Of a stretch of 45,625 bases of DNA, positions 8,160 through 26,996 are shown in pieces. The stretch is from Bacteroidota bacterium (GTDB lineage: Bacteria > Bacteroidota > Bacteroidia > 2-12-FULL-35-15). Every line of letters begins with the position of its first letter. The first letter of the stretch is position 1. Made by a program: the position numbers and the translations under genes. The notes below the pieces were generated by a model that was not told the origin of the DNA, did not search any database, and saw nothing but the letters and a program-made list of their open reading frames with translations. The stretch lies in contig JAHEXZ010000043.1 in the NCBI GenBank assembly GCA_023251835.1, forward strand, positions 1 to 45,625. The letters are read 5' to 3'.

Positions 8160-8921
8160 CTATACTTCTATCTTCAACCCATCATACGCAAGTTCAATAT
8201 TGGCGGGTAACTCTTTTTGAACTTCGGCATGTAAGCCCAACTGATGGCTGATATGCGTAAAATATGTTTTTCCAGGGTTGAGTTCTTTCGCCAGTTCTAT
8301 GGCTTGTTCTAAATTGAAATGAGAGATATGGGGTTCTCTTCTCAGGGCGGTTAATACCAATATTTTAGTGCCTTTAATTTTTTCTTTTTCTGTATCGGAA
8401 ATATAATTCGCATCGGTTATATACGTAAAATCATTTACCCTGAAACCAAAAACAGGCAGTTTGTAGTGCATAACTTCTATCGGAAGAAAATCAACATCAT
8501 GGATAACTGTTGATTTGTTTTCCAACAAAAAAAGATTAATCTCAGGAATACCGGGATATTTAAAATCGCTGAAAATATATGCAAATTCACGTTTTATGGC
8601 TTCCTGTACATGAGCAGACGCATAAATATCCATTTTCCTTTTTTGGATATAATTAAACGCTCTTATATCGTCAAAACCGGCTATATGATCTTTATGTTCG
8701 TGGGTAAAAAGAACAGCATCTAGTTTTTTAACATTTTCACGTAACATTTGCTGACGAAAATCGGGGCCTGTGTCAATAACAAATGTTTTTCCTTTTTCTT
8801 CAATAAGAATAGAGGTGCGCAGGCGCTTATCTCTTGAATCGTTCGACTGGCAAACAATACAAGTGCAGGCAATAAGCGGTACCCCTTGTGAGGTACCCGT
8901 TCCTAAAAAAGTTACTTTCAT
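8160..8921 (-). CDS. MBL-fold metallo-hydrolase, PhnP-like
   Basis: A cytosolic metallo-beta-lactamase-fold phosphodiesterase-like hydrolase of 253 residues. It opens with FLGTGTSQGVP and a CxCxxC cluster (Cys19, Cys21, Cys24), both seen in the PhnP/RNase Z-like branch where the cysteines bind a structural zinc. The catalytic HxHxDH motif is THEHKDH at 73-79. Further metal ligands are likely in the TDAN segment and in the C-terminal THISHQLG segment. Known PhnP cleaves cyclic ribose phosphates, but no phosphonate genes are nearby, so the substrate is open. It begins 11 bp after the preceding PKD gene on the same strand and may be read from the same transcript by proximity alone. Confidence 0.88.
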   Translation of the reverse strand: MKVTFLGTGTSQGVPLIACTCIVCQSNDSRDKRLRTSILIEEKGKTFVIDTGPDFRQQMLRENVKKLDAVLFTHEHKDHIAGFDDIRAFNYIQKRKMDIYASAHVQEAIKREFAYIFSDFKYPGIPEINLFLLENKSTVIHDVDFLPIEVMHYKLPVFGFRVNDFTYITDANYISDTEKEKIKGTKILVLTALRREPHISHFNLEQAIELAKELNPGKTYFTHISHQLGLHAEVQKELPANIELAYDGLKIEV

Positions 8922-8932
8922 ACAGATTATTT

Positions 8933-11900
8933 TTATCTTACCACAGTTATTGTACCTCTGTAATAATGCTTTTTCTTTTTAATATCTGTTGCTTTAATAA
9001 CATAAACATAGATATCTTGTTGAGTAATCCCGATTCCGTTGTTTACAGTACCATCCCATCCTTTATTAAAATCATCTGAATAAAATACAAAGTTTCCCCA
9101 CCGGTCGTAAATTTTCATTTCAAACTTTCCAACAAAAATTCCTATCGGGCGAAAAACTTCATTTTTGCCATCATTATTTGGAGAAAAACCACTGGGTATA
9201 TAAAATGCAAAATCACGGCTAACAGATGCAGTCTGGTAGACTGTATCGGAACAACCATATTGACTGGTTGCAATTAGGGTTATTGTGTAGGTGCCTGTAT
9301 CAGCATAAGTATGTTTTAGTGAATCTGAAACAAAAGCACTATCAAATGCTGTTGTTCCATCGCCAAAATTCCAGCTCCATAATATTGCTCCGGATGTAGA
9401 GTCTTTAATTGAAACAATAGGATTTATGATGGTTGTTGTTTCCGGTTCGATAGTAAAATCAGGTTCAGGCAAAGGATATACTGTAATATAATTGCTTTTA
9501 GACAAAATACTTACACAGCCGCTATCAGAAGTAGCCGTTAAAGTCGCGTCAAAATAATCGGTTAAGCCCGACAGATTGTTGTTATAGCAGTGAATGGGGT
9601 TTTGTATAGTATCTGTTGTGCTTCCATCTCCAAAATCCCACGAATAAGAAGTTATACTTCCAGATGCAATAGAGGATGAATCTTGAAAAAAGGTACACAA
9701 TGGTTCACAACCTAATGTATCTATAGATGAAAATCTGACTATAGGGTTTGGGCTTACAGTGGATGTTTTTGTAAGAGAATCAGGACAACCAAAGTTTGAA
9801 ACAACAACTAATTTTACAATGTAGGTGCCGGTATCGCTATATTGATGTGCTGTATTCTGGTTATTGTAAACAGGGCTTCCGTCTCCAAAATTCCATACCC
9901 TGGATTGTATCACATCATTGGATGGATTGGAGGAGATAATGGAAAGGTCGGCAAATGGTGTAAGGCTTCCTAAACAAACATTAGAAGCAGAAAATTGTAC
10001 TGTGGGCTTTGGGTGTGTTAATGCATTTTGGGTAACAGTATCCGTACAATTATTATTTGTTGTTACAATTAAAGTAACAGGAAATGCACCATCGCTGACA
10101 AACGTATGGTTGGGATTCTGAAGTGCGCTTAAAGGACTTCCGTCATCAAAATTCCATGCCCAGCCAATAATAGTATTGCCCCCCGAAACAGTTGATGAAT
10201 CAATAAATCCCATAACCTGGTTTTCGCATGCCTCAATAAAACCGAAATTAGCTATAGGTGTTGGAAATATGGTTATTGTATCTTTTATGGTGTTCGGACA
10301 ACCTAGGTTAGAGGAATAGGTAACCAAAGTAACAATATAGTTGCCGGGAGCTATATACTGGTGGTTGGGACTCCAGGTGTTTGTGTTTAAAGAAGTTCCG
10401 TCTCCAAAATTCCACAACCAGTTTGATATACTACCCATTGTTGGTGGGGAGGAAGAGTTGGTGAATAACGCAGAGTCGGACAGACAGGTATTGTTGAACA
10501 TAAATGCACTGCTTGGTGCGTCAAAGGCACTTACTGGTACTGTTGCCGCACTCGAACAGCCATCGGTGCTGGTGGTGACTAAAGTAACAATATAGTTGCC
10601 TGGCGTATAATAATGTGAAGGATTTTGCAGGTTGCTTGTCGGGCCAAAATCCCCGAATGACCATATATAGTTGGCAATAGCGGTAGAATTGTCTATAGTA
10701 GATGTATTTGTAAAATACATAGTATCGCTATAACATACATTACTATGTGTGAAACCAGCAACAGGGTTATAATATACGATGGCAGATTTTACTACTGTAT
10801 CTGTACAACCAAAGTTATTAGTTACAATTAAAGTAACAGTTTTGTTTCCGGCACTGGTGTATATATAAGAAGGACTGGAGCTGGTATTTAAAGGGCCTCC
10901 ATTGCCAAAATCCCATGACCATGCATTAATGCTGCCAGAAGATGTAGTGGAAGCATCTGTAAATTGTGTCTGGCTTCCATTACAAACACTGGTACTGGTA
11001 AACTCTGAAACAGGTTGGGGAAAAATAATGATTGTTTTAGTAATGGAATCGGCACAACCGAAGTTGGAAACAACAAGCAATTCGGCCAGATATGAGCCCG
11101 AAACAGCATATAAATAAGAACTATTTTGATTCAGATTAAACAAGCTGCCATCTCCGAAATCCCATTTCCAGGACACAATTGTGTCTGTATTCTGGATGGA
11201 TGAAGAATCATTGAAAATAACGCTGTTATTGTCGCAAACATTTGCAGCACTGTAGTTTGCTGAAGGAAGCGGATGAACTACTGTTGTTTTTGTTATACTA
11301 TCTGTACAGCCATTATCAGTAGTTATGGTTAGTTTCACCATGTATGTACCTGCTGATGAATAGGTGTGTGATGGATTTGTTGAAGTATTTGCAGGGTTCC
11401 CATCTCCAAAATTCCATAACCAACTTGTAATGTTGCCGGATATTGTGGTAGATGTATCGTTAAAAGTTATTGTTTGTCCAGGGCAATTGCCGGTTGTTGT
11501 GAAAGCCGCAACAGGATTAGGCTCTATAATGATAGTGTGAATGATAGAATCTTTGCATCCTCCACTGTCCTCCATCAGCAGTTCGGTCTGATAGGTTCCC
11601 GGACCAGGAAAAATGAAGTTAGGATTTTGAGTTGTATTGTCAATGGTGCCGTCATTATTAAAATCCCATTTCCAGCTGGTGATTGTGCCTGTGGGTGTTG
11701 ACGCGTCTGTAAATACAGCAGAAGCATTATCACAAACATCGGCAGCAGCGAAAGCTGCTGTAGGCCCACTGAGGTTAATTGCTAAACTTGTATCCGGTAC
11801 ACAACCATTCGCATCAGTAGAAGTAAGTGTTACAACATAGGTGCTGGATCCCAAAGGAAATATATGTGTTGGGTTTTGAGTTGTTTCGGGAGGAGAACCG

Positions 11901-12736
11901 TCCCCAAAATCCCATTGCCAGGCAGTAATTGAACTTCCGGATGCCGGAGTTGAGATGTCCGAAAATGTTATTGGTTGTCCCGGACAGGCAGCTCCGCTGC
12001 CACCTGTAATGCCCGGAGCTGTGAAATTAGGAACAGGAGAAGGTTTAACAGTAATAGTAAAGGTAGAATTTCCACAGCTATTGGAAAGTGTTATGTTTGC
12101 AACCTGAGTAGTGGGACTAACAGTGGGAAGAAAAGCAGGAATATCTCCGCTTCCACTTGCCGCCAAACCAATAGATGTGTTGTCGTTCGTCCATGTACTT
12201 CCTTGTGGAAAGGTGAAAGTTCCCACCATTTCACCGGTTCCGCTGCATGTTGCTACATTTGAGAAGGTTGGTGGTGGCTCGATAATTATAACACCTGTTG
12301 ATGCAGGATACATGCCGCATCCATCTTCCGTAAAAGCAGAGTTCCCTGATATAATTGTTATTGTGATAGGTACACCCACAGGCATACCAACAAAATCATA
12401 AGCTACCCAGTCGTTATAAGTGTTAGCATAACTCGGGCAAGAACCAAATATAGTTAGAGTGGAAGAGCATCCCGGAAGGCTACCAAATGGAACACCCAAA
12501 ACACCGCTGTTGGGAGAACCTGTATAAGTTGTTGTTACACCATTGACAGTAACATCCAGTGTCATTGTAGTAGAATTGATGTCTTCATTCGAATGCCAGT
12601 GTTCAACCCATATTCGTAAATCCCCATTACAGTTGGCACAATAGGATACCTGAACAGAATGCCCAAGAACAGTATATCTCAGGCATAATGCAAAGAAAAA
12701 AAGGCTTAATCTGATATTAAAATACCGCCAGGTCAT
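8933..12736 (-). CDS. Giant PKD-repeat surface protein, T9SS type B (array gene 4)
   Basis: A predicted secreted adhesin-like protein of 1267 residues and the last of four consecutive paralogues. After an export signal (MTWRYFNIRLSLFFFA...) comes a head of about 160 residues that I do not recognise, opening SVQVSYCANCNGDLRIWVEHWHS and containing several cysteines. After a linker domain there are eleven PKD-type domains, each marked by a W-x-W-x-FGDG-like turn and a later QNPxH element. The last roughly 88 residues (FYIPSGFSPNNDG, KIYDRWGN, then RGTITVVR) are the gliding-motility-associated T9SS type B C-terminal domain. ATG 12736 is preferred because the frame extends upstream only to a TTG at 12793. 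The final PKD block aligns in order with that of its upstream neighbour, which indicates duplication. Family biology suggests surface attachment or binding of polymers; the ligand is unknown. Confidence 0.88.
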   Translation of the reverse strand: MTWRYFNIRLSLFFFALCLRYTVLGHSVQVSYCANCNGDLRIWVEHWHSNEDINSTTMTLDVTVNGVTTTYTGSPNSGVLGVPFGSLPGCSSTLTIFGSCPSYANTYNDWVAYDFVGMPVGVPITITIISGNSAFTEDGCGMYPASTGVIIIEPPPTFSNVATCSGTGEMVGTFTFPQGSTWTNDNTSIGLAASGSGDIPAFLPTVSPTTQVANITLSNSCGNSTFTITVKPSPVPNFTAPGITGGSGAACPGQPITFSDISTPASGSSITAWQWDFGDGSPPETTQNPTHIFPLGSSTYVVTLTSTDANGCVPDTSLAINLSGPTAAFAAADVCDNASAVFTDASTPTGTITSWKWDFNNDGTIDNTTQNPNFIFPGPGTYQTELLMEDSGGCKDSIIHTIIIEPNPVAAFTTTGNCPGQTITFNDTSTTISGNITSWLWNFGDGNPANTSTNPSHTYSSAGTYMVKLTITTDNGCTDSITKTTVVHPLPSANYSAANVCDNNSVIFNDSSSIQNTDTIVSWKWDFGDGSLFNLNQNSSYLYAVSGSYLAELLVVSNFGCADSITKTIIIFPQPVSEFTSTSVCNGSQTQFTDASTTSSGSINAWSWDFGNGGPLNTSSSPSYIYTSAGNKTVTLIVTNNFGCTDTVVKSAIVYYNPVAGFTHSNVCYSDTMYFTNTSTIDNSTAIANYIWSFGDFGPTSNLQNPSHYYTPGNYIVTLVTTSTDGCSSAATVPVSAFDAPSSAFMFNNTCLSDSALFTNSSSPPTMGSISNWLWNFGDGTSLNTNTWSPNHQYIAPGNYIVTLVTYSSNLGCPNTIKDTITIFPTPIANFGFIEACENQVMGFIDSSTVSGGNTIIGWAWNFDDGSPLSALQNPNHTFVSDGAFPVTLIVTTNNNCTDTVTQNALTHPKPTVQFSASNVCLGSLTPFADLSIISSNPSNDVIQSRVWNFGDGSPVYNNQNTAHQYSDTGTYIVKLVVVSNFGCPDSLTKTSTVSPNPIVRFSSIDTLGCEPLCTFFQDSSSIASGSITSYSWDFGDGSTTDTIQNPIHCYNNNLSGLTDYFDATLTATSDSGCVSILSKSNYITVYPLPEPDFTIEPETTTIINPIVSIKDSTSGAILWSWNFGDGTTAFDSAFVSDSLKHTYADTGTYTITLIATSQYGCSDTVYQTASVSRDFAFYIPSGFSPNNDGKNEVFRPIGIFVGKFEMKIYDRWGNFVFYSDDFNKGWDGTVNNGIGITQQDIYVYVIKATDIKKKKHYYRGTITVVR

Positions 12737-12821
12737 GAACCATAATGTGTTTTTCGAACCCTTAAATTTAATTCGTTTTGCTGGTTTTATCAATATTTTA
12801 GGGTATAGTTTATATAGTAGT

Positions 12822-12858
12822 TCTCAAAAAATTAGGGTTTAAGACCCTTTTGAGACAA
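12822..12858 (-). terminator. Nested hairpin, possible terminator
   Basis: In the 209-bp gap between two PKD genes, AGGGT and ACCCT form a short stem, while TCTCAAA and TTTGAGA form an outer stem. Read on the minus strand the inner stem is followed by AATTTTTT. It could end part of the transcription of the upstream gene at 12946-16665, or act as a processing site. Confidence 0.4.
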
Positions 12859-12885
12859 CTTCTTTGCATCCAATGCAGGTGGTAT

Positions 12886-12939
12886 TATACTTCGGCTGAA
12901 TGAGTTTGAAAAAACCGGCAAACTCATTCGCTCAGTATA
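12886..12939 (+). repeat. Family 1 palindromic repeat, copy B (54 bp)
   Basis: The simplest copy. TATACTTCGGCTGAATGAG and CTCATTCGCTCAGTATA arms pair, with GAATGAGTTTG/CAAACTCATTC perfectly matched and a loop of about 9 nt. It begins 6 bp beyond the stop codon of the minus-strand gene ending at 12946. Confidence 0.85.
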
Positions 12940-12945
12940 AATGTA

Positions 12946-15900
12946 TTATCTGACAACCGTGATTGTTCCTCTGTAATAATGTTTTCTTTTTTTAATATCT
13001 GTAGCCTTTATAACGTAAACGTAGGTCTCTTGCTGACTAATAGCTGTTCTATTGTTTACTTTGCCATCCCAGCCTTTATTAAAATCATTGGAATAAAAAA
13101 TGAGGTTTCCCCACCGGTCATAAATCCTCATTTCAAATTTCCCAACAAAAATTCCTATAGGGCTGAAAATATCGTTATTGCCATCATTGTTTGGCGAAAA
13201 TCCATTTGGAATATAAAATAAAAAATCCTGTTCAACAACAGGGTTTTTGTATGTTGTGTCTGAACATCCATATAGTGAAGTAGCAATAAGTGTAATGGTA
13301 TAACTTCCTGTATCAGCATACGTATGTTCCAATGAATCAGAAACAAAAGAAGTATCGGATGAGGTTGACCCATCTCCAAAATCCCAGTTCCACACAACAG
13401 CTCCGGACGAGGCATCTGTAATTGAAATAACGGGATTTACAATAGTTGTGGTTTCCGGCTGAAGAGTGAAATTGGCTACGGGGGATGGGTACACAGTAAC
13501 ATAACTATTCTTAGACAGGCTATTTACGCAGCCGCTATCGGAAGTAACCGTTAACGTTACATTATGGTAAGCGATTGAACTACCCGGATTATTATAGCAA
13601 TGAGCAGAATTTTGTGTACTATCTGTTGGACTGCCATCTCCCCAATCCCACTGGAAAGAGTTTACAGCACCAGCACTAATATATGACGAATCCTGAAAAT
13701 TAATACATAAAGGGCCACAGCCCAAAGTGCTGGAAGAAGTAAAATCAGCTGCCGGATTAGGGCTTACTGTAGCTGTTTTAGTTGTTGAATCAGCGCAACC
13801 AAAATTTGAAACAACAATAAAATTAATGGAATAGGTTCCTGTATCGCTGTATTGGTGTGCTGTATTCTGGTTATTATAAACAGGGCTACCATCACCAAAA
13901 TTCCATGTTCTGGATTGTATTACATCGTTAGGAGGGTTGGAGGGGATTGATGAAAGGTCGGAAAAGGGTGTTAGACTACCTAAACAGACATTGGTGGTTG
14001 AAAATTGCGCTGTAGGCTTAGGGTGTACAATTACATTTTTTATAATGGTATCAAAACAGTTATTATTTGTAGTTACAATAAGCATAACAGGAAACGAACC
14101 TGAAACAATAAACTGGTGGTTTGGATTCTGACCCATATCTATTGGGCTTCCATCCTCATAATTCCATGACCAGCTTGTAAGACCGTTTCCGGATAAAATC
14201 GATGAATCTGTAAAATTCATTACCTGGTTTACACATACTTCTGTATATCCGAAGTTAGGAATAGCCGAAGGAAGCATAGTAATTGTATCTTTTAGTGTAT
14301 CGGCACAGCTCAGGTTGGATGAATACGTAATTAGAGTAACGATGTAATCTCCGGATGCCGTATATTGGTGACTTGGACTCCAAGCAGTTGTATTAACAGG
14401 TGTTCCATCGCCAAAATCCCATGACCAGTTTGCTATAGTTCCATCACTTGGAGGGGTGGAATTATTGGTGAACTGTGCAGGCGTTGATAAACAGTTGCTG
14501 CTGGATGTAAACGCGCTCGTTGGAGCATCAAAAGCATTTACAGGAACAATAGCAGCACCAGAACATCCATCGATGGTTGTTGCCACCAGCGTAACAGTGT
14601 AGTTGCCTGTGGTTGTATAGTAATGTGAAGGGTTTACTAAACTGCTTGTGGGGCTTGCATCACCAAACGACCATAAGTAATTGGCAATAGAGGTGGAGCC
14701 ATTGACAGAAGAAGTATTGGTAAAATACATTGTGTCGCCTAAGCAAATATTATTAAATGTAAAACCTGTCACAGGGTTATAATATAGTGAAACAGTTTTT
14801 GTAGCTGTATCTGAGCAACCCAAGCTGTTGTTTACCTGAAAAGTAACAGTATAGACTCCTACATTGGTGAACAAGTGAGAAGGATTGGGATTGGTATCTA
14901 TGGGACTTCCATCTCCGAAGTTCCATGAATAGGTGCTGATAGTTCCGCTGCTTGTGCTTGAGCTGTCTGAGAAGACGATTGCACTTCCCTGACATCCTGA
15001 TTCACCGCCAAATAAAGCAACAGGTTTAGGGTTTACCGTTACCTGTGCAATGGCTGTTCCATTACATGTTCCTGAAACACCTGTTACTGTATATGATGTT
15101 GATGTTAATGGTGAAGCACTTGCCGTATTTGTTCCTGTGGGTGTTGCGCCTGCAGACCAGCTATAGGTGGCTCCACCAGTTGCTGTTAATAGTGCAATTT
15201 CGCCTGTACAGATAGTTGGAGAATTAACGGTAATTGTTAATGCTGTTGAAACAGTTACTATTGCAATAGCACTATCAGAACAGCTTCCGCTGGTTGCTGT
15301 AACAGTGTATGAGGTGTTAGACGAAGGAGATACAACGATGGAGTCAGTTGTTTCGCTAGTAGACCATGAATAGGTTGTTCCACCGCTTGCAGTGAGTGTA
15401 ACAGTTTGTCCGCTGCAAATGGTTGGTGAATTCACACTAATAAGAAGAGATTGAGTAGTATCAGTGATAACGGTTATTGTATCAGTATTGGTGCAACCAT
15501 TTGCCGCATCAGTAGCCGTTACTGTATATGTGCCTGTGGCTGTTACTGTAGATGGATTGGGAGAATTTATTAAAGCCCCTCCATTCCAAACCATTGTATT
15601 GCCGGTACTGCTGCCGGTAAGTGTTACGGAGGTTACAGAACACGTTAAATTGCCACTGCTGCCTGCTGTAACTGTTGGTGGAGTGGTATTGGAAACAACT
15701 GTTACAGAGTCGCTGTTAACGCAACCATTTGCATCTGTTGCGGTTACTGTGTATGTTCCTGTTGTATTAATAGTAGCCGGATTGCTGGCATTAAACAACG
15801 AGCCTCCGTTCCAAACCATTGTACCACTGCTGGTAGCAGATAAGGCAACAGTGCTGTTAACGCAGGTAAAGCTATCGGTTGGCGCAATTGTGACTGTTGG

Positions 15901-16665
15901 TGGAGGTGCGGCTGTTGCATGTGTAACTGTGGTTATATTGTTCCAAAGTAGTGAAACATCAGAGGCTGTTGACACATTAGGACTAACTGAAATGTACTTA
16001 ACACACCCAGGTTGTGTTTCACATTGTACAACATTATCGTCTCTGAAAAAATTAATTGGAGTGGCGCTTGTTGATGGGCAGTATAAATTTCCGGTATCGT
16101 TATAGGTGCCAAAAAGTGTACCATCTACATAAACAGAAATTATACCGGTGCCACCATCTCTCACAAATGTTATCAAATAATAAATATTCGTATTAAAATA
16201 GGGACATGTTCCAACATTTCCGTTAGGATATAGGTTAAGACAGTTTCCTGAAAAATAAATTCCGGCATCAGCTGTACCATTAGAAAAATCAATGATACGG
16301 GCAAACCCACCTAAAGAACTAAACCGGAAAAACACATTTATGGTATAGCTTGTTGTGATTAAGCCGGGATTGGGATATTGTAGTCCACCCCCGTCATTAA
16401 AGCAATACGAGTTAGAAGTAAGACAAGCCCCTGATGTTGTGCCTGAAGTTTGAGTGCTATATGAACCCGTTGTTGCTCCACATGCTAATAATTCGGTTAA
16501 TGCCGGACCGCTGCCAAATTCGTTAAAATTATTGTTGAATATATATTCGTGGGTTTGCGAAGATAAAGTAAATGAGAATATTGCAAGTATGGGGATTATT
16601 AAGCAGCACCCCAACCGTTTGGTTTTGCCAATAATATTAGATGAAAAAAGAATAGGCTGTTTCAT
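12946..16665 (-). CDS. Giant PKD-repeat protein with LamG-like head, T9SS type B (array gene 3)
   Basis: A secreted surface protein of 1239 residues. A signal peptide spans about residues 1-36. Residues about 40-250 form a LamG/concanavalin-like head (EYIFNNNFNE, FFRFSSLGGFARIIDF, ISVYVDGTLFG), a fold that commonly binds glycans. Next come about four Ig-like modules of TCVNSTVALSA...GTYTVTATDANGC type, the first two nearly duplicates of each other. Seven PKD domains follow, and then a C-terminal type B domain (FYIPNGFSPNNDG, RIYDRWGN, TITVVR) almost the same as that of array gene 4. One PKD segment, FGDGSPVYNNQNTAHQYSD, is identical in genes 3 and 4. The Thr/Val-rich repeats create long antisense frames that are not genes. 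It lies 73 bp downstream of array gene 2 and is probably co-transcribed with it. Confidence 0.9.
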   Translation of the reverse strand: MKQPILFSSNIIGKTKRLGCCLIIPILAIFSFTLSSQTHEYIFNNNFNEFGSGPALTELLACGATTGSYSTQTSGTTSGACLTSNSYCFNDGGGLQYPNPGLITTSYTINVFFRFSSLGGFARIIDFSNGTADAGIYFSGNCLNLYPNGNVGTCPYFNTNIYYLITFVRDGGTGIISVYVDGTLFGTYNDTGNLYCPSTSATPINFFRDDNVVQCETQPGCVKYISVSPNVSTASDVSLLWNNITTVTHATAAPPPTVTIAPTDSFTCVNSTVALSATSSGTMVWNGGSLFNASNPATINTTGTYTVTATDANGCVNSDSVTVVSNTTPPTVTAGSSGNLTCSVTSVTLTGSSTGNTMVWNGGALINSPNPSTVTATGTYTVTATDAANGCTNTDTITVITDTTQSLLISVNSPTICSGQTVTLTASGGTTYSWSTSETTDSIVVSPSSNTSYTVTATSGSCSDSAIAIVTVSTALTITVNSPTICTGEIALLTATGGATYSWSAGATPTGTNTASASPLTSTSYTVTGVSGTCNGTAIAQVTVNPKPVALFGGESGCQGSAIVFSDSSSTSSGTISTYSWNFGDGSPIDTNPNPSHLFTNVGVYTVTFQVNNSLGCSDTATKTVSLYYNPVTGFTFNNICLGDTMYFTNTSSVNGSTSIANYLWSFGDASPTSSLVNPSHYYTTTGNYTVTLVATTIDGCSGAAIVPVNAFDAPTSAFTSSSNCLSTPAQFTNNSTPPSDGTIANWSWDFGDGTPVNTTAWSPSHQYTASGDYIVTLITYSSNLSCADTLKDTITMLPSAIPNFGYTEVCVNQVMNFTDSSILSGNGLTSWSWNYEDGSPIDMGQNPNHQFIVSGSFPVMLIVTTNNNCFDTIIKNVIVHPKPTAQFSTTNVCLGSLTPFSDLSSIPSNPPNDVIQSRTWNFGDGSPVYNNQNTAHQYSDTGTYSINFIVVSNFGCADSTTKTATVSPNPAADFTSSSTLGCGPLCINFQDSSYISAGAVNSFQWDWGDGSPTDSTQNSAHCYNNPGSSIAYHNVTLTVTSDSGCVNSLSKNSYVTVYPSPVANFTLQPETTTIVNPVISITDASSGAVVWNWDFGDGSTSSDTSFVSDSLEHTYADTGSYTITLIATSLYGCSDTTYKNPVVEQDFLFYIPNGFSPNNDGNNDIFSPIGIFVGKFEMRIYDRWGNLIFYSNDFNKGWDGKVNNRTAISQQETYVYVIKATDIKKRKHYYRGTITVVR

Positions 16666-16738
16666 ATTAAATCTGTCCGCTAAATTATAATAAAAAAACA
16701 GGTGTTATTACAATTTATACCCTAATAGATGCATAAAA

Positions 16739-19700
16739 CTACCTTATAGTTGTAACAGGTCCCCGGTAAATGTGTTTTTTTGACTGAAAATCAATAATTT
16801 TTATGGAATATATATATACATCAGACTGTGCAGGTTGGTTTCCATTGTTTGCTTTACCATACCAGGGTTTATCTATACTGTTGGTTTTATATATTAAATT
16901 GCCCCATCTGTCAAATATATTCATTTCAAAATCAGTAATAAACATTCCCTTGGCAATAAATGTGTCATTTATGCCATCATCGTTCGGGGTAAATGCATTA
17001 GGGATATATACCAGGAATTCTGGTTCCACTATAATAGTCTGATAAGCCGTATCTAAACAGTTGTATTGAGTAGAAGCAATAAGCGTAATTATATAACTTC
17101 CAGTGTCTGCATATATATGAGGTGCCGGATTATAAATAGAGTCGGTTTGTAAATCTCCGAAGTTCCAGTTCCACGCATTTGCTCCGATGGTTGAATTGAT
17201 AATGTTAATGAGCGGATATGTAGAGGTAGCAGTTTGAGGTGAAACGGTAAATTGTGCTATAGGCCCGGGAAAAACGGCAATGTAATTATTTTTTGTTAGT
17301 ATAGAAACACATCCGCTGTCGGAAGCAACTGTAAGGGTAGGGGAGAAGAAGCGGGGTATAAGAATAGTATCATTATAATAACAGTGTAAAACGTCCTGTG
17401 AGCTGCTGTTTTGGGTATTATCTCCAAAATCCCATAGCCAGTTTGCAACAGCTCCTCCGGGAACAAAAGATGCATTTTGTAATGAAAGACATAATGGTTC
17501 ACAACCAGCAGTATCGGTGGCAGTGAATGATCCGATTGGGTTAGGGTTAATCACAATAGTTTTAGAAATAGAATCCATGCAGCCAAAAACAGTTGTTACC
17601 ATTAATTCAACATCATAGGAACCAGTAGCCGTATATGTATGAGAGGTGTTTTTATTTGTATCCAAAGGGCTTCCATCATTAAAGTTCCAGCTCCAGGACT
17701 CCAGGGTATCCGTTAAAGGCACTGTTGAAATGTCGGAGAATGGTGTTGATGTTCCTAAACAAACATTTAAAAAATTAAATATTACATCAGGAAGTGGATG
17801 CACTACAACATTATTGGAAACAGTATCTTTACAATCATGATTTGTATTTACAATCAAAGTGACCGGATAAAAGCCATAGGCGGAATATTGGTGATAGATA
17901 TTTTGAGAACTATCCGGCAAACTGTTATCACCATAGTTCCATAACCAACCTGAAATAATATCGCCATTTATGGTTGAAGAATCCGTAAAGTTCATTGATT
18001 GGCCTAAACAAATATCGCTGTGGTTAAACAGAGCTACGGGTTTATTATAAACTAAAACAGGTTTTATTATGGTGTCGGCACAGCCCCAGCTATTATTTAC
18101 AGTCAACGAAGCATTATAATTTCCTGCATTAATATAAAAATGTAATGGATTTTGAATAGTATCTGTTGATAAATCACCAAATATCCATTGCCAGGAGGCC
18201 AGGTTTCCTGATGCGGTTGAAGAACTGTCAGTAAATACTGTATTATAGCCATTACAAACAAAGGCAGCACTATAATTTGCAACAGGATTTGGGTAAACAA
18301 TAGCTGTTTTGGTGAGAGAATCAATACAGCCGAATTTTGAAGTTACTGACAATTCAACATTATAAGTGCTTTCATTGGCATAAAGATGAGTACTGTTTTG
18401 ATTATTGTTCTGTGGGCTTCCATCTCCAAAATCCCAAAGATAGGATTGAATTGTATCGGTTATCATTATTGTTGAAGAGTCATTAAATAAAGTAACCGTG
18501 CCGTCACAAACATTGGTTGTGCTGAACTGTACCAAAGGTAATGGATGAACAATTACATTTTTTATAATGGTATCAAAACAACCATTATTAGAGATAGGGA
18601 CTAAAGAAACAGAATACGTTCCAGGATTGGAGTAAATATGACCGGGGTTTTGCACAGAACTTACCGGAGAGCCATCTCCAAAATCCCATAACCTGCTAAC
18701 AATGGTTCCGGCAGAAATAACTGAAGCATCGGTAAAACCCATCGACTGATGTAAACATACAGGGATAGAATAAAAATCAGCAACAGGTAAACAATGAACA
18801 ATAACCGGCTTTGTAATAGAATCTTTACATCCATTATTACTTGTTACAACTAAATTGCTGTTATATGTCCCACAGCTTGGGTAGATATGACTTGGGTTTT
18901 GAATCACAGAGGTATCGGTATCTCCAAACTCCCAGCGCCAGTTTGAGATATTTCCCTGTGTAGAGTCGTTAAAAATGGTAGACTGGTTTTTACAAACAGC
19001 GCTTGCACTATAATTTGCTGCCGGTAAGCAATAAACGGTAGTTGATTTAGTAATGCTATCCCTACACCCATTATCTGAGATAACTATCAGTTTTACATTA
19101 AAAGTATCACATACAGAATACTTATGTGTAGTATTTTGCAATGAATCACTGTTGTTATCATCAAAATTCCAGTTCCATTTATTTATAATCCCCCCTTTTG
19201 GTGTTGTTGATATATCATTAAACAGCATTGTATCTCCTAAACAAACAGCCGCTGCACTGAAATCTGCTAAAGGTTTTCCGAGAACATGTAATTCGGTATA
19301 AGAAGAATCTTTTGAATCACAACTTGTTGCTCCCGGTTTAACAGTTACTAAAGAAACTGTATAAGTTCCTGTATCAGCGTAAGTGTGTGTATCGTTTTGA
19401 AGAGAGGATGTTGTGCCATCTCCAAAATACCATTTCCATGAAACGGGAGTATATAGTGCGCTTCCTGTAAAAGTTACCGAATCGCCATGACATACATAAA
19501 TCTCGCTAAGTGTCATTTTTTGTTGAAGATTTTTAACATTTGCACCAGCCAGATATCCGTATGCTTCCGGGCTTCCAAAGCCATAAGCAATGGCATTGAA
19601 TCCACTATCGGCAACAAGTGTATGAACTCCCACTGTAACGGTGTTTTGGGAAAAGGAATAAGCGGGGTTAGATGGAACAGGATTAAACGTAACAGTAGCT

Positions 19701-20830
19701 CCATCCAGAAGAAAAGTGCCTATATCGGCACTTTTCATTACAATATTGATATACTCTCCTGTAATCGACTGATGAGAAGTTGAATAAAGCAAAACGTTAT
19801 TAACGGTTTGTTCGATTGGATTTAATATAATCATAAATGGATCTCCGGTAACACCATCACAGGAACTGCTTTGTGCATATTGAGCGACAGCAATGGGTTT
19901 GTCTGCTGTGAAATAGCTTGCTGTGGTTAGTATGGTATCAAAGTATTGTGCCTGATTTAAAACAATAGAAGAACCATTAATTGTAATGGTTGTTGCATTA
20001 GAGTCGGCCATTACACGGAAAATATCACCACCAAAACGGCTTTTTAAAGGCGAAGTAATAAAATTTTTACCCCATGTGTTGGTGGGGTACATCTGTTCAA
20101 ACAAATTATCTCCTGAACCGCCACCACCGCACCCGGGTGAATCCCAAGTGCTTCCGGAAAACACAGCTATTTTTTTACAATCACTACTGCCTGTGCTTAT
20201 TGCGGTAATTTTGCTGCCAGTCAGATCTGTTGTTGATTTCACCTGATATACATCTCCTTGTTGTAAAGTCACAGTAAAAGGAGTGTTGGCCGGATTTCCT
20301 CCCAAGGTTGGTGCTGTGGGTATTATTTCTACTTCCGTGCTATCTTCAACTGCCACTATAAGAAACTCAGAATATTCACCTCCGTATTGTGTCATACACA
20401 TTGCATAATATTCTTTACCCAAAACTTTTTTAGGAAAAATTAATGAAGCGTCTGCTCTGGCAGGTGCATATATTTGGGCATGAACGGCAATATCATTGTC
20501 GGCTACAATATGTATTCCCCTTTGCTCAAGACAATCCGAGCAACCAACATAACCTGTTGAAGAAGGTACTGTTACGGTAACCATGGAATTGCCCACAGCT
20601 GAAAAAGATGCAGACCAACCCTGAAGAGGAACAGAAACTGTTCCTGTGGTATTAACGGATGCAGAAATATATAATATAAAGGTGGAGCCATATCCATCAA
20701 TATGCCCCATGTGCCCTACCCAAAAATCAGTTCCTCGATTAGAAAAATCCTGTGAAGAAATTCTGGGGGAGCAAAGGAGAACTATTAGACAAAGGAAGTA
20801 ACCTGAAAATGTTTTTCTTATTGACCTCAT
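16739..20830 (-). CDS. Giant PKD-repeat protein with IgGFc-binding-like head, T9SS type B (array gene 2)
   Basis: A secreted protein of 1363 residues. A signal peptide covers about residues 1-26, followed by SNRGTDFWVGHMGH. Residues about 30-430 match the IgGFc-binding N-terminal domain type, with landmarks GIHIVADNDIAVHAQIYAP, GKEYYAMCM, and FRVMADSNATTITING. In vertebrates that domain type occurs in Fc-gamma-binding mucin-like proteins; in bacteria its ligand is not established. Ten PKD domains follow, several degenerate in the FGDG turn (FDDN, YGDN, FGDL). The C-terminus is a T9SS type B domain (VYIPNAFTPNDDG, NIFDRWGNLIY) that closely matches array gene 1 and is less like genes 3 and 4. 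It starts 24 bp after array gene 1, so the two are almost certainly in one operon. Confidence 0.92.
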   Translation of the reverse strand: MRSIRKTFSGYFLCLIVLLCSPRISSQDFSNRGTDFWVGHMGHIDGYGSTFILYISASVNTTGTVSVPLQGWSASFSAVGNSMVTVTVPSSTGYVGCSDCLEQRGIHIVADNDIAVHAQIYAPARADASLIFPKKVLGKEYYAMCMTQYGGEYSEFLIVAVEDSTEVEIIPTAPTLGGNPANTPFTVTLQQGDVYQVKSTTDLTGSKITAISTGSSDCKKIAVFSGSTWDSPGCGGGGSGDNLFEQMYPTNTWGKNFITSPLKSRFGGDIFRVMADSNATTITINGSSIVLNQAQYFDTILTTASYFTADKPIAVAQYAQSSSCDGVTGDPFMIILNPIEQTVNNVLLYSTSHQSITGEYINIVMKSADIGTFLLDGATVTFNPVPSNPAYSFSQNTVTVGVHTLVADSGFNAIAYGFGSPEAYGYLAGANVKNLQQKMTLSEIYVCHGDSVTFTGSALYTPVSWKWYFGDGTTSSLQNDTHTYADTGTYTVSLVTVKPGATSCDSKDSSYTELHVLGKPLADFSAAAVCLGDTMLFNDISTTPKGGIINKWNWNFDDNNSDSLQNTTHKYSVCDTFNVKLIVISDNGCRDSITKSTTVYCLPAANYSASAVCKNQSTIFNDSTQGNISNWRWEFGDTDTSVIQNPSHIYPSCGTYNSNLVVTSNNGCKDSITKPVIVHCLPVADFYSIPVCLHQSMGFTDASVISAGTIVSRLWDFGDGSPVSSVQNPGHIYSNPGTYSVSLVPISNNGCFDTIIKNVIVHPLPLVQFSTTNVCDGTVTLFNDSSTIMITDTIQSYLWDFGDGSPQNNNQNSTHLYANESTYNVELSVTSKFGCIDSLTKTAIVYPNPVANYSAAFVCNGYNTVFTDSSSTASGNLASWQWIFGDLSTDTIQNPLHFYINAGNYNASLTVNNSWGCADTIIKPVLVYNKPVALFNHSDICLGQSMNFTDSSTINGDIISGWLWNYGDNSLPDSSQNIYHQYSAYGFYPVTLIVNTNHDCKDTVSNNVVVHPLPDVIFNFLNVCLGTSTPFSDISTVPLTDTLESWSWNFNDGSPLDTNKNTSHTYTATGSYDVELMVTTVFGCMDSISKTIVINPNPIGSFTATDTAGCEPLCLSLQNASFVPGGAVANWLWDFGDNTQNSSSQDVLHCYYNDTILIPRFFSPTLTVASDSGCVSILTKNNYIAVFPGPIAQFTVSPQTATSTYPLINIINSTIGANAWNWNFGDLQTDSIYNPAPHIYADTGSYIITLIASTQYNCLDTAYQTIIVEPEFLVYIPNAFTPNDDGINDTFIAKGMFITDFEMNIFDRWGNLIYKTNSIDKPWYGKANNGNQPAQSDVYIYSIKIIDFQSKKHIYRGPVTTIR

Positions 20831-20854
20831 GGCATGCTCTTTTGGTCTAATAAT

Positions 20855-23800
20855 TTACCTCACCAATGTCACAATTCCTTTGTAATTATATTTTTTCAAT
20901 TTAAAATCAATAATTTTAATTGAGTAGATATAAACATCGGGTTGTGCAAGTTCATTCCCATAATTAGCTTTACCATTCCATGGTTTATTCATATCATCTG
21001 TTCTGTAGATAAGGTTTCCCCAGCGATCGAAAATAGACATTTCAAAAGCGTTGATAAAAATACCTCGGCCAATAAATGTATCATTTACACCATCGTCATT
21101 AGGTGAAAAAGCTGTAGGAATAAAGAAAGTAAAATCCGGTTCAATAATAACGGTTTGAAAAGCTGTATCAATGCAGTTGTATTGTGTAGTGGTAATTAAG
21201 CTGATGGTATAAGCGCCAGTATCAGAATAGGTATGTGGTATTGGAACGGAGGCACTATCAATACCAGTGGTGAGCGGAGCCGAACCATCTCCGAAATTCC
21301 AGAACCAGGAATTGGCACCTGTAGAAAGGTCAGTAATAGCAACCACCGGATTAATAATGGAAGCAGAAGTTGGTATTACACTAAAACCGGCATCGGGCTT
21401 AGGAAATACAGTAATATGATTTGTTTTAGTGAGTGAAGTAACACAACCGCTATCAGAAGTAACGGTTAATGAAATAGTATAGAACTTAGGATTAAATACA
21501 GAATCATTAAAAAAACAATGATTAATAAGCGTATTGTTAGCAGCAGTATTGCCATCTCCAAAATTCCAAATCCAACTGTTGTTGTTTCCTGTTGCAATAG
21601 TAGAAGAGTTGGAAAAATCAATACACAGCGGCTCACAACCAATGGTATCGCTGGTAGTAAAGCTGACCAAAGGATTGGGATTAATAACAATAGTTTTAGT
21701 AGTGGGATCAGCACAGCCAAAGCTGGAAAGCACATTTAACTGAACAGAATCAGTTCCGATAGCAGCATATAAATGAGCTGTATTTTGAGTATTAGAAACA
21801 GGTGAATTATCGCCAAAATCCCAGTTCCATATAACAACGCTGTCATAAGTGGGATTAGTTAGTACAGTAGATAAATCAGTAAACACAGCCGTATCGCCAA
21901 AGCAAACGTTGTAAGTAGAAAAAAGAGCATCGGGCAAAGGATGAACAACAACGGTATTGGTAGCTGTATCCTTACAATTGTGATTAGTTTGAGCAAAAAA
22001 AGTAACCGTATAAGCTCCGAAATCATCGTAAGTATGAACAGGGTTTTGTAGAGTATCCAAAGAAGAATTATCGTCAAAATTCCAGATCCACGCACTCATG
22101 AAAGAAGTACCAGTAACGGAAGAAGAATCAAAAAAGCTCATGTTTTGTCCCAGGCACACCTCAGCAGCAGTGAAATCAGCAACAGGCATAGGGAAAACAG
22201 TAAGGGTATCCATAGCTGTATCAGCACAAGCTAAGTTAGAAGAACGCGTGATAAGAGTAATGGTATAAGTACCCGTATCAGCATACAGATGCAGTGGATT
22301 TAAATCTGTAGTATTCAAAGGCGTTACATCTCCAAAATTCCATGTCCATGAGGCAATGGTACCCATAGAGGGATTATTAGAAGTATTGTTAAATAAAGCA
22401 GAATCAACCAGACAACAATTAGCAACATTAAAATCCGCTACAGGCGGGTCAAACACATTCACATTCCTGTTAACAGCATTCACACAATTTTGGTTAGTAG
22501 TAACTAACAATGTTACTCCATAATTAGCAGGGAGATTAAAAAAATGAGCAGGATTTTGTACCCCACCAGTAGGGCTGCCATCGCCAAAGACCCATAACCA
22601 GGAAGCAATAACAGCCGAAGTATCAACATAGGAAGAATCGTTAAAAAACACAGAATCATTTAAACAAACATCCAGAACCGTAAAATTAGCAATGGGGTTG
22701 AAGTAGACAACTATGGGTTTAGTGACTGTATCGGCACAGGTAAAGTTATTCTGAATAATGAGTGTAGTAGAAAAATTACCAGCATTTGGGTAGAGATGAG
22801 AAGGATTTTGAGTAGCATCTGCAGGCGAACCATCCCCAAAATTCCAGTTCCAGGAACTAATGGTGCTGCCGGAAGCAGTAGTGGAGCTGTCTGAAAAAGG
22901 AACCGCAGTGCCATCACATTTGTTTATATCTGTAAAATCAGCCACAGGCTTGGGATATATGATAATAGGATGTGTAACAGAATCAGCACATCCGAATGTA
23001 GAGGAAACAAGAAGTTGCACATTATAAGTTGCAGCGGCCGTATAGAGATGACCACCTGTAACCTGCTGCTGAAAGAGTAAAGGAGTGCTGTCTCCGAAAT
23101 TCCATGTCCATGATTGAATAGTATCAGTATTAGTGATGGATGAACTTTCGTTAAACGAAGCATAATACCCATAACACACGTTAGCGGTGGAGAATTGAGG
23201 TACCGGCAGTGGATGTACTACTATATTTTTAGAGATGGTGTCTTTACATCCGTTATTGGTAGTAACAATTAAGGTAACGGTGTACGTGTCGGGACTTGAA
23301 TATAAATGGCTTGGATTCTGATTAGTATTTGCGGGGCTTCCATCTCCGAAATCCCAGGAATAAGCGGATAGCGTTGCTCCCGAATTAGGCACCGATGTAT
23401 TTGTAAAAGGCATACTGTCTCCAATGCAAACATCGAGGTTGCTGAAGCCGGCAGTTGGAAGGCCATATACATGAACCGGATTGGCAGCAGTATCAAGACA
23501 ACCATAACTACTTTGTATAACCAGAGTAACATTGTAACTGCCCGAATCAGGGTAAATGTGTGTTGGATTGGAAGCGATGGTTACAGGGCTTCCATCTCCA
23601 AAATCCCAACCGGATAACACAATAGTTCCTGGTGTGGTGGATGTGTTGGTAAATTGGGTAGCATTATTTTTACAAACGGTTGTATTTGTAAACGAAGCCA
23701 CAGGAGGGGCAATAACATGGATGTATATGGTATTTGTATCAGTAGTGTTGCCACATTTTGCGATAAGCTGTATCTGTTGTAATCCGACAGTGTTAAATAC

Positions 23801-25306
23801 AAAAGGAAGCGTGTCTTTATCGGCAGTAATAAGGGTGTTGTTTATATACCAGTCTTCAAAACATCTTTTTCCAACGGAGGTAGTATTATAGAACCATACG
23901 GTATCATTAACACAAACATTGGTATCGCTGGGAACAAATGTGGGCACGGTAGTGCAATGCTGACACAGATAAATATCTGTAGGGGAAAAGATGTTTGTGG
24001 TAATAGAAGGAGTGGCAATTGTTGCGGTCGGTATAGTTTCACTGCCTCCTGAGCCAACTGTTGGTGTTATGTTCTGAACAATAGTAGCAGCATTTGTCTC
24101 ATTACAGCCAGCCTCTCCGAGGCTGTCGGTTTTCATAAACAGCGGATCATAATAGTTGGCTCCGAAACTTGCGGTTACAATAGACAGAGCATAACCACCA
24201 TCAGGAGCTTCTCTGGCCATAGCTCCTTTATCATAAGCTGGGCCACCATAAGCCTTAGACCATTCAAGATTACCTAAGCTATCGGTCTTAATCAAATAGG
24301 CATCCAGGTCACCTGCTCCAAAACTTGTAGTATAGCCAAACACAGAAAAACCATGATCTCTTGTTTCTAAAGCAAAACGAGGTTGTTCATCTGCTGCCCC
24401 TCCATAGGTTTTTGCCCACACTACAGCACCACTATTATCTGTTTTTATAAGTAATACATCATTGCTTCCGGAACCAAAGCTGGTTGTATTTGCGCAAACC
24501 ATAAAGCCACCGTCTGCCGTAGTTTTTCCGGAAATTCCCCATTGGCTGCTTCCTTCGCCACTTGCACCACCATATGTTTTAGCCCACTGTATACTTCCTG
24601 ATGAGTCTAATTTTAAAACATATATATCATAGCTTCCTGCCCCAAAACTTGTAGTGTAGCCAACAACTTTGTAACCACCATCACTTGTCTGTTCAACATA
24701 ATCGCCCCAGTCAGATCCGGCTCCTCCGTACACTTTCATCCATTGTGTATTACCGTTTGCGTCTGTTTTTATTAGTGCAACATCTTCGGCACCAAAGCCT
24801 AATCCGCTCATAAAACCAGAGATAACATAGCCACTATCGCTTGTTTGCTGGACATAAAGACCATAATCAGCAGCTCCGCCACCATAAACTTTTGACCATT
24901 GCAGATTACCTGATGCATCAAGTTTTAACAGGGTTATGTCATAATCACCTGCTCCAAGAAAAGCAAGACCGGTAACAATATACCCCCCGTCAGTTGTTTG
25001 CTGAATAGCTTTTCCTCCATCTTCCCCTGTGCCTCCATAAGTTTTAAACCATTCAGGATTACCACAGCCATCTACCTTATAAACATATATATCACAACTT
25101 CCGGCACCCGAAGATCCATGTTGCCCTGTGCCAACAAAACCACCATCATTTGTTTCTGCTAAAGACAGCCCCCCATTCATTCCGGCAGCCTGGAAAGTGC
25201 GCATAAAAGTATTGGTAGTTTGTGAGAAACAGGAAAATGAGATTCTGAAAGCCCAAACAAAGGTGAGAAAAGAGAAGGTAAAAATGTATCTGGTAGTCGT
25301 ACTCAT
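20855..25306 (-). CDS. Giant PKD-repeat protein with likely seven-bladed propeller head, T9SS type B (array gene 1)
   Basis: The largest of the array, at 1483 residues, and the first in transcription order. After a signal peptide (ending near SCFSQ) there are seven repeats of about 50 residues, with consensus TxDGGYxVxG-x-SFGAG-x2-D-x2-L-x-K-x-D-x2-G-x3-W-x-K-x-YGG. The seventh repeat lacks the closing W-x-K-x-YGG strand, and the mature N-terminus (FMRTFQAAG) looks able to supply it, as in a closed seven-bladed beta-propeller. An Ig-like domain follows (about 450-540), then ten PKD domains, and a T9SS type B C-terminal domain (FFIPTAFSPNDDG, SIFDRWGNLIY). The propeller fold is inferred from repeat number and phase; the ligand is unknown. 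A 161-bp AT-rich gap upstream probably holds the promoter, but no convincing consensus box was found. Confidence 0.92.
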   Translation of the reverse strand: MSTTTRYIFTFSFLTFVWAFRISFSCFSQTTNTFMRTFQAAGMNGGLSLAETNDGGFVGTGQHGSSGAGSCDIYVYKVDGCGNPEWFKTYGGTGEDGGKAIQQTTDGGYIVTGLAFLGAGDYDITLLKLDASGNLQWSKVYGGGAADYGLYVQQTSDSGYVISGFMSGLGFGAEDVALIKTDANGNTQWMKVYGGAGSDWGDYVEQTSDGGYKVVGYTTSFGAGSYDIYVLKLDSSGSIQWAKTYGGASGEGSSQWGISGKTTADGGFMVCANTTSFGSGSNDVLLIKTDNSGAVVWAKTYGGAADEQPRFALETRDHGFSVFGYTTSFGAGDLDAYLIKTDSLGNLEWSKAYGGPAYDKGAMAREAPDGGYALSIVTASFGANYYDPLFMKTDSLGEAGCNETNAATIVQNITPTVGSGGSETIPTATIATPSITTNIFSPTDIYLCQHCTTVPTFVPSDTNVCVNDTVWFYNTTSVGKRCFEDWYINNTLITADKDTLPFVFNTVGLQQIQLIAKCGNTTDTNTIYIHVIAPPVASFTNTTVCKNNATQFTNTSTTPGTIVLSGWDFGDGSPVTIASNPTHIYPDSGSYNVTLVIQSSYGCLDTAANPVHVYGLPTAGFSNLDVCIGDSMPFTNTSVPNSGATLSAYSWDFGDGSPANTNQNPSHLYSSPDTYTVTLIVTTNNGCKDTISKNIVVHPLPVPQFSTANVCYGYYASFNESSSITNTDTIQSWTWNFGDSTPLLFQQQVTGGHLYTAAATYNVQLLVSSTFGCADSVTHPIIIYPKPVADFTDINKCDGTAVPFSDSSTTASGSTISSWNWNFGDGSPADATQNPSHLYPNAGNFSTTLIIQNNFTCADTVTKPIVVYFNPIANFTVLDVCLNDSVFFNDSSYVDTSAVIASWLWVFGDGSPTGGVQNPAHFFNLPANYGVTLLVTTNQNCVNAVNRNVNVFDPPVADFNVANCCLVDSALFNNTSNNPSMGTIASWTWNFGDVTPLNTTDLNPLHLYADTGTYTITLITRSSNLACADTAMDTLTVFPMPVADFTAAEVCLGQNMSFFDSSSVTGTSFMSAWIWNFDDNSSLDTLQNPVHTYDDFGAYTVTFFAQTNHNCKDTATNTVVVHPLPDALFSTYNVCFGDTAVFTDLSTVLTNPTYDSVVIWNWDFGDNSPVSNTQNTAHLYAAIGTDSVQLNVLSSFGCADPTTKTIVINPNPLVSFTTSDTIGCEPLCIDFSNSSTIATGNNNSWIWNFGDGNTAANNTLINHCFFNDSVFNPKFYTISLTVTSDSGCVTSLTKTNHITVFPKPDAGFSVIPTSASIINPVVAITDLSTGANSWFWNFGDGSAPLTTGIDSASVPIPHTYSDTGAYTISLITTTQYNCIDTAFQTVIIEPDFTFFIPTAFSPNDDGVNDTFIGRGIFINAFEMSIFDRWGNLIYRTDDMNKPWNGKANYGNELAQPDVYIYSIKIIDFKLKKYNYKGIVTLVR

Positions 25307-26040: not shown

Positions 26041-26070
26041 TTCTTATCTCTTAAAAAATTGAAAAAGGGT

Positions 26071-26400
26071 TTACATAAAACCAAGTTCTAACTGAGCTAC
26101 TTCGCTCATCATTTCTTTTTCCCAGGGTGGCTCAAAAGTGATTTCGACTTTGGCTGATTTTATTCCTTCTACTTCTCGGAGTTTTTGCTCTACTTCAGGT
26201 GGAAGTATTTCTGCAACGGGGCAGGATGGAGAGGTTAAAGTCATTTTTACTGCCAGGTTATTTTCTTCATCAATAGTGATTTCATAAATTAAGCCTAATT
26301 CCCAGATATCGATAGGGATTTCCGGGTCGTAACAGGTTTTTATTGTATCAATCACTCTTTGTGCAAGAGCAGTATCGTGTGTGTTGATTATTGCAGGCAT
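26071..26400 (-). CDS. sufT: SUF Fe-S assembly protein SufT (MIP18/DUF59 family)
   Basis: A small cytosolic MIP18-family (DUF59) protein of 109 residues that in other bacteria helps mature Fe-S proteins under high demand. It shows the family core YDPEIPIDIWELGLIY near residue 28 and LTSPSCPVAEILPPEVEQKL with the conserved cysteine of the TxPxCP motif; EITFEPPWEKEMMSE closes the domain. It stands between sufE and the DUF2480 gene on the same strand, within the Fe-S block. Repeat copy C separates it from sufE. Confidence 0.92.
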   Translation of the reverse strand: MPAIINTHDTALAQRVIDTIKTCYDPEIPIDIWELGLIYEITIDEENNLAVKMTLTSPSCPVAEILPPEVEQKLREVEGIKSAKVEITFEPPWEKEMMSEVAQLELGFM

Positions 26401-26426
26401 TTTTTAAAGTGATAAAGTTTTAAAGT

Positions 26427-26481
26427 TATACTTCGGCTGAATGAGTTTACAAAAAAACATCAAACCCATTCGCTCAGTATA
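26427..26481 (+). repeat. Family 1 palindromic repeat, copy C (55 bp)
   Basis: TATACTTCGGCTGAATGAG and CCATTCGCTCAGTATA arms with a 10-nt A-rich loop. It has the same orientation as copy B and differs from it at a few positions. It fills most of the 118-bp gap between sufE and sufT, 26 bp beyond the sufT start. Confidence 0.85.
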
Positions 26482-26518
26482 AAAGTCAAAAATTTAAATT
26501 AACAACATTTCTTTTGAC

Positions 26519-26941: not shown

Positions 26942-26944
26942 AGC

Positions 26945-26980: not shown

Positions 26981-26996
26981 TTATAAATTTTTATTT

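Follow-up and report, generated by a model that had tools for sequence, protein, structure and literature searches.

How have four giant genes in one row come to carry the same stalk and anchor under four different heads? The question is raised by a 45,625-nt contig of a Bacteroidota bacterium (GTDB lineage 2-12-FULL-35-15; JAHEXZ010000043.1 in assembly GCA_023251835.1). We analysed this whole stretch, hereafter the window; it is contig C131 of the source genome G000. It holds four giant minus-strand genes, transcribed in the order D, C, B, A. Their products end in a type B C-terminal domain (CTD) of the type IX secretion system (T9SS), preceded by a stalk of tandem PKD domains. A preliminary description had read them as a display module in which a common stalk and anchor bears exchangeable heads. 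We consider it probable that they encode four paralogous fibrillar surface proteins of T9SS type B, in all likelihood adhesins, whose heads move, whose tails are overwritten and which share shuttles. From the genome comparisons, the picture of a mosaic fibrillar-adhesin family largely holds: conserved heads would be shuffled among array loci, and their ends homogenised within a genome.

A common layout under unrelated heads

The genes and their parts are listed in Table 1. The coordinates, the common layout and the 7-11 PKD copies first described were correct, as judged from open frames, a PKD hidden Markov model (HMM) and the CHU_C and TIGR04131 models. Copies were counted as strong copies with a purpose-built PKD HMM. 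In Pfam, PKD_4 is present in all four proteins (E 5e-90 to 3e-145). CHU_C (PF13585) and TIGR04131 terminate all four, above both curated cut-offs. By inspection, the four N-termini are hydrophobic and represent candidate export signals.

The start of gene A was revised. Its listed open frame opens with TTG at 12793, and we prefer the ATG at 12736. Homologs begin 25 to ~42 residues ahead of a conserved HSVQV motif. The ATG fits, because it leaves 25 residues before this motif. With this start, the gaps of 24, 73 and 209 bp described earlier are reproduced.

The heads are mutually unrelated. In BLASTP against all the others, each head returns only its own family, plus generic immunoglobulin (Ig) repeats for B. 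Comparisons with Pfam, the PDB and homologs agree in substance with the earlier account of all four heads. A comparison with the PDB matched the D head to the CylK propeller region (E 1.6e-10). The C head is IgGFc_binding (PF17517, E 1e-71). The B head is Laminin_G_3 (PF13385, E 3e-8, above the cut-off), is found in 7/7 orthologs and is followed by Ig-like repeats. The A head consists of the first 130 mature residues, conserved across seven sequences. It has no family in Pfam, and a Foldseek search with its model (beta strands, mean predicted local distance difference test score, pLDDT, 73) returned generic Ig chains only, with TM ~0.2. The sequence matches thus give three candidate adhesive domains with a named family (lectin-like Laminin_G_3 in B, IgGFc_binding in C, the CylK-like propeller in D), and A has none.

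The model of the B head is poor (pLDDT 56.5). It matches a lectin-like jelly roll that occurs in the binding domains of clostridial neurotoxins and in trans-sialidases. We dismissed kinship with toxins; these structural matches appear to reflect the general concanavalin-A-like fold.

In two surveys, PKD_4 is named as a stalk of fibrillar adhesins and CHU_C is listed as an anchor in Bacteroidetes (PMC8286594, PMC9210967). The four proteins have the size of this class, 1239-1483 aa with a tandem stalk of 7-11 PKD domains, and A, B, C and D all have the CHU_C anchor. The source genome (4.1-Mb assembly, 171 contigs, 96.6% complete) encodes 78 CHU_C proteins over the cut-off. Since 29/78 lie in same-strand tandem arrays, such arrays are usual in this genome.

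Heads and tails often have different histories

Gene B can be followed in five congeners. Its head is single-copy in G002, G017, G019, G021 and G022, always beside malate dehydrogenase and a gene with a 334-aa head. The complete genes (G002, G017, G019) encode proteins of 1093-1105 aa. Their heads are 68-71% identical to that of B in amino acids, and their tails consist of further Ig repeats, 2 PKD domains and a divergent CTD. The head is also present at the malate-dehydrogenase place in G021 and G022, where the contigs stop inside the gene. The same locus is intact in G000, with its 334-aa-head gene, and B is missing there. By these comparisons, gene B is a chimera relative to its orthologs, a new head-tail fusion at a new place. 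The change is most simply assigned to the G000 lineage, because G019 is the sister of G000 in the Suf-protein tree (support 100/99). Direct capture of the head and arrival of the whole gene with later tail replacement are both compatible with B, and the comparison cannot separate them.

The new tail resembles that of gene A, with 71% nucleotide identity over 1995 nt. The A head, judged from the sequences, probably reached this locus onto a resident tail.

Gene D occupies slot 1, directly after the SUF genes, in G000, G019 and G022. This slot is probably ancestral, because D directly follows the SUF genes in G019 and G022 too. Its head has 74% nucleotide identity with that of G019. The similarity to the gene at C132_21306, which has an unrelated head, starts at gene nt 1999. 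The breakpoint lies in PKD 2, ~110 residues into the stalk. The alignments indicate that the D tail was converted or swapped while the gene stayed in its ancestral slot.

Wider comparisons of tails point the same way as well as back to the heads. Head families (f1, f10, f11, f14, f27 etc.) were defined by N-terminal matching. Single-linkage BLAST clusters were rejected, as they fused 81 proteins via Ig repeats. We built a tree of 79 stalk/anchor ends, on which genome labels require 28 changes against a shuffle mean of 47.2 (standard deviation, sd, 2.3). Head families require 35 changes against 44.2 (sd 1.5), where perfect grouping would be 16. Genome and head both leave a signal in the tails, and grouping by head is imperfect. 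In 30/54 comparisons, a paralog with a different head is nearer in its tail than the best ortholog with the same head.

We also applied the approximately unbiased (AU) test to 24 chosen rows (LG+G4, quick tree), with groups named from head families. A single clade was rejected for the D-family tails (p-AU 2e-93), the A family (1e-4) and f14 (0.006). These values are strong rather than exact, because the rows were picked after viewing the larger tree.

The adjacent type B genes C123_9252 and C123_13692 of the source genome (L056, C123:9252-16739) have unrelated heads and 90.9% nucleotide identity over 1467 nt. This tract ends ~105 nt short of the gene end and looks like the clearest conversion tract that we saw. 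The stalk/anchor ends were probably homogenised within the genome by gene conversion.

Two further observations concern type B arrays. At L167 of G002 (C6, genes at 268412 and 272090), adjacent type B genes have tails 93% identical and different head families. At L067/L068 of the source genome (C132:30903-40048), five tandem genes opening with a 'AQDNVGIGTNTPDASAILEMLSTNKGLLIPRM'-like stretch come right after a two-gene type B array.

Other heads at the same loci

The array lies between SUF genes and an MBL-fold gene. This whole interval is on one contig only in G000 and in the well-assembled congener G002; elsewhere the sides are on separate contigs. G002 has a same-strand array between DUF2480 and MBL, with f10, f1, an unmatched head, an 879-aa protein and f14. 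It contains no window head (0/4). The homologs of f10, f1 and f14 in G000 are located in other arrays or places (C168, C132, C115). In G022, D and then f10 follow the SUF genes and f14 precedes MBL, on separate contigs. The gene before MBL is a type B PKD gene with an f14-like tail in G017; in G021 the series is f11-f11-f27. No such array lies between SUF and MBL in G027 and G031, the two other-family genomes checked.

The second locus follows purF. In G002 and G022, purF is followed by A-type and then C-head genes, and in G017 by an A-type gene. In G000 it is followed by an array with three other heads. Head turnover is therefore seen at two syntenic loci, SUF-MBL and purF. A one-event head swap between two loci was demonstrated for no gene. 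Nor was a simple crossover shown between the MBL-side array of G021 and the second C16 array of G002; the outer flank genes of the G021 array are unmatched in the compared loci.

We also checked for arrays in which each gene always keeps its head and its place. The arrays in congeners did not behave so.

Absence of a neighbouring shuttle gene

No PorP_SprF match was found on the whole window contig, so the partner gene reported missing is indeed missing nearby. The genome has 17 PorP/SprF genes over the cut-off, four of them orphan, at C69:48321, C134:13495, C136:30159 and C113:31821. A close same-strand partner accompanies 12 type B genes, and a thirteenth is near one on the opposite strand. 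The PKD-stalk CTDs form a subclass of their own. Its 19 core CTDs (genes with >=4 PKD) have 56% mean mutual identity and 31% to PorP-adjacent CTDs. With a same-strand PorP/SprF neighbour in 0/27 array-type genes, lack of a partner characterises this CTD class as a whole. The T9SS translocon is represented in the genome by SprA (TIGR04189, 2629 bits, at C78).

A neighbouring cognate PorP/SprF is usual for type B substrates, not obligatory, and orphans exist (PMC12618676). In Flavobacterium johnsoniae, one orphan shuttle serves three orphan type B substrates, and high-identity CTDs crosstalk (PMC12618676). On the basis of this sharing and crosstalk, we infer that homogeneous tails keep many heads fit for few orphan shuttles.

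Proposed mechanism and alternative explanations

By analogy with the type B family (PMC9143113, PMC12618676), the proteins would be exported by Sec and then by T9SS. The head would sit at the tip, the PKD domains would form a rod, and the C-terminal type B signal would hold the protein on an outer-membrane PorP/SprF-like shuttle. The genome has several array loci, of which this is one, and the heads are old families of different folds. Alone or together with part of the stalk, heads would move between these loci and join resident stalk/anchor ends. The ends of one genome would repeatedly overwrite each other via PKD/CTD homology, probably by gene conversion. Two routes are proposed: a tail may be overwritten in place (D; C123_9252/C123_13692), or a head may come to a new locus and join the tail already there (B, probably A). 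The common CTD would be kept because all these proteins without a partner gene have to match one small set of orphan shuttles, and any head joined to the common tail would thus be exported to the same place. The recombination route, surface display, ligand binding and the shared shuttle are all conditional parts of this proposal.

The idea of exchangeable heads therefore needs some amendment. Turnover at syntenic loci, the relocation of the B head onto a different tail, and tails that contradict head ancestry all speak for it. Each head, however, is itself an old conserved family. Several further points weigh against exchange. D holds slot 1 in three genomes and had its tail replaced, so heads are not freely swapped. 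The C tail is not significantly discordant; its descent with its own head, as in the G002 ortholog, was not rejected (p-AU 0.12). Tails follow heads in 24/54 comparisons. Among relatives, only G002 shows the entire SUF-MBL interval, and the MBL-side array of G021 adjoins genes other than SUF. All compared genomes are metagenome-assembled genomes (MAGs) or were handled as such, with strong fragmentation in several relatives. The case is built on genome sequence.

Translocation of whole genes between arrays, with later conversion of the PKD/CTD ends, would leave a pattern almost identical to that of head transfer. Heads would then never be exchanged as such, and there would be no selected display module. 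We regard this as a serious but less likely explanation. It suits D, with its replaced tail in an ancestral slot, and the conversion-like 91% tract of C123_9252/C123_13692, which stops before the gene end; some neighbours also co-travel (A-type with C, f11 with f27). Gene B is harder to accommodate. Its ancestral tail, with more Ig repeats and 2 PKD domains, differs too much from the array tail to have been replaced by simple homologous conversion, and its join sits at the head/stalk border. The difference is also partly one of wording, since such a process yields new head-tail combinations too.

It is very improbable that four unrelated genes independently joined generic PKD stalks and type B CTDs, a layout common in Bacteroidota that would say nothing about exchange. 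The genome does have its 78 CHU_C proteins, many with PKD or Ig stalks, and both domains are listed among the stalks and anchors of fibrillar adhesins (PMC9210967, PMC8286594). Yet the A/B tails and the D/C132_21306 tails are recent common sequence at the nucleotide level, which contradicts independent joining, and the AU test rejected a single clade for the D-family tails and for the A-family tails. Slightly less probable still is an assembly chimera, in which short reads of repetitive PKD genes were misjoined in the MAG into false head-tail pairs. The assembly is fragmented (171 contigs), and the longest exact stretch common to D and C132_21306, within their 82.7% tract, is 69 nt. A misjoin at a 69-nt repeat would not, however, yield an 83% identical tract of 2.4 kb. 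The longest exact match of A, B and C to the other G000 loci compared is 20-24 nt (A/B <=20 nt), all four frames are intact, and syntenic head turnover also occurs between other genomes. A false join is unlikely for A-C and would fail to account for the long diverged tract of D.

Transcription units and neighbouring genes

A single operon had been proposed from the short gaps. A terminator-like hairpin between B and A and the non-conserved gene order make one operon for all four genes uncertain. Given the hairpin in the 209-bp B-A gap, the likely break, D, C and B may form one unit and A another. The Bacteroidota-type promoter box (TAnnTTTG) is absent from every gap of the array.

The B-A gap also contains a palindrome, ACTGAGCGAATGAGTTTG..CAAACTCATTCAGC, at 12895-12936 (minus strand). 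It occurs again in an intergenic position within 26401-26518. The source genome has nine exact copies, and G019, G002 and G022 have none. It is a lineage-specific repetitive extragenic palindrome (REP)-like repeat, of which one copy lies in this gap.

Other genes of the window were noted beside the array. SufS-like (26997-28256, minus) and IscS-like (28334-29575, plus) genes form a divergent cysteine desulfurase-like pair, also close together in G002 and G019. Between the mqnC-like and MBL genes, 7093-8157 (plus) encodes a 354-aa secreted protein with, by eye, a type A-like T9SS C-terminus; this gene was not seen between the same neighbours in G002. A 960-aa subtilisin-like protease is encoded at 33579-36461 (minus), and its C-terminal stretch resembles a type A T9SS signal by inspection.

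Table 1. Positions of the array genes, their parts and the flanking genes in the window.
Feature	Position	Strand	Description
Gene D	20855..25306	-	1483 aa: putative signal peptide, propeller-like head, 10 PKD, type B CTD; first transcribed
D head	24092..25213	-	Repeats resembling the CylK propeller region; 79% identical in G019, ~70% in G002, G022
D stalk/anchor tract	20864..23308	-	82.7% nt identity over 2452 nt to G000_C132_21306, head unrelated
D type B CTD (CHU_C)	20864..21121	-	Pfam match
Gene C	16739..20830	-	1363 aa: IgGFc_binding head, 10 PKD, type B CTD
C head core	19580..20452	-	PF17517; ~66% identical in G002, G021, G022
C type B CTD	16772..17008	-	CHU_C match
Gene B	12946..16665	-	1239 aa: Laminin_G_3 + Ig-like head, 7 PKD, type B CTD
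B Laminin_G_3 head domain	15907..16557	-	Lectin-like; 75-79% identical in five congeners, adjoining malate dehydrogenase
B head-stalk junction	15022..15054	-	...GTAIAQVTV / NPKPVALF...; ortholog similarity stops, array-type PKD stalk starts
B stalk/anchor tract	12949..14928	-	71% nt identical to A tail, from gene nt 1738
B type B CTD	12958..13212	-	79% aa identical to A CTD
Terminator-like hairpin, B-A gap	12834..12848	-	Consensus match only
Gene A	8933..12736 (ATG)	-	1267 aa: unnamed head domain, Ig-like domain, 11 PKD, type B CTD
A head domain	12272..12661	-	HSVQVxYC...; no Pfam family; invariant Cys, His, Trp in 7 homologs
A stalk/anchor tract	8936..10918	-	71% nt identical to B tail
A type B CTD	8945..9199	-	CHU_C match
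Left flank: DUF2480-, DUF59-, SufE-, SufS-like genes	25468..28256	-	Named by inspection; syntenic in G002, G019, G021; in G022 SufS to DUF59
Right flank: MBL-fold gene	8160..8921	-	By inspection; preceded by type B PKD genes in G002, G017, G021, G022

Comparison with known systems and significance

Like the fibrillar adhesins of Monzon and Bateman, described as long single-chain surface proteins with a terminal adhesive domain, a tandem stalk and a C-terminal anchor (PMC8286594, PMC9210967), the array proteins carry a head on a stalk. Unlike them, the heads here belong to general fold families or to none, and their adhesive role is putative. The same papers classify single proteins; array loci with head turnover or tail homogenisation were not found in their available parts. 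The TIGR04131/CHU_C CTD is shared with the T9SS type B substrates that have PorP/SprF shuttles, such as SprB with SprF and Fjoh_1123/1720/4934 with Fjoh_1677 (PMC12618676, PMC9143113). As in the three orphans of F. johnsoniae, the array proteins lack a neighbouring shuttle gene (PMC12618676). In contrast with those three, there are here 27 array-type CTD genes against 4 orphan PorP/SprF, with long PKD stalks and tandem arrays.

Shuffling of adhesin domains is already known (PMC10952558, PMC5266723). In the CshA_NR2 family, tip domains occur on varied stalks and anchors, including CHU_C (PMC10952558). That shuffling was deduced from architecture across phyla, whereas here it is seen between congeners at fixed loci and with a homogenised stalk. 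The gingipains and HagA of Porphyromonas gingivalis are likewise T9SS surface proteins from Bacteroidota, and rearrangement and allelic exchange have diversified them (PMC5266723). Their adhesin and catalytic domains vary between strains, whereas the array combines N-terminal heads of unrelated fold with PKD stalks and a type B CTD. Our searches of an open-access library gave no match for array loci fixed in place with head turnover and tail homogenisation.

A bolder reading is that the arrays form a combinatorial display library. Unrelated heads would be kept compatible with few orphan shuttles by tail recombination. The arrays would be exchange sites where heads gain a common address label, possibly varying within one population. 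This reading is tentative, and we hold it to be rather doubtful at present.

For most T9SS type B proteins no ligand is known, and it is an open problem how such large numbers of them can share so few PorP/SprF shuttles. The present system holds apparent natural chimeras, in which one head occurs with more than one tail and one tail with more than one head. They separate the parts for export and anchoring (the tail) from those likely to determine the target (the head), and they give natural fusion points. The system also makes it possible to test directly whether homogenised tails go together with shared shuttles. Finally, it suggests in concrete terms how environmental Bacteroidota may renew their set of adhesins through recombination.

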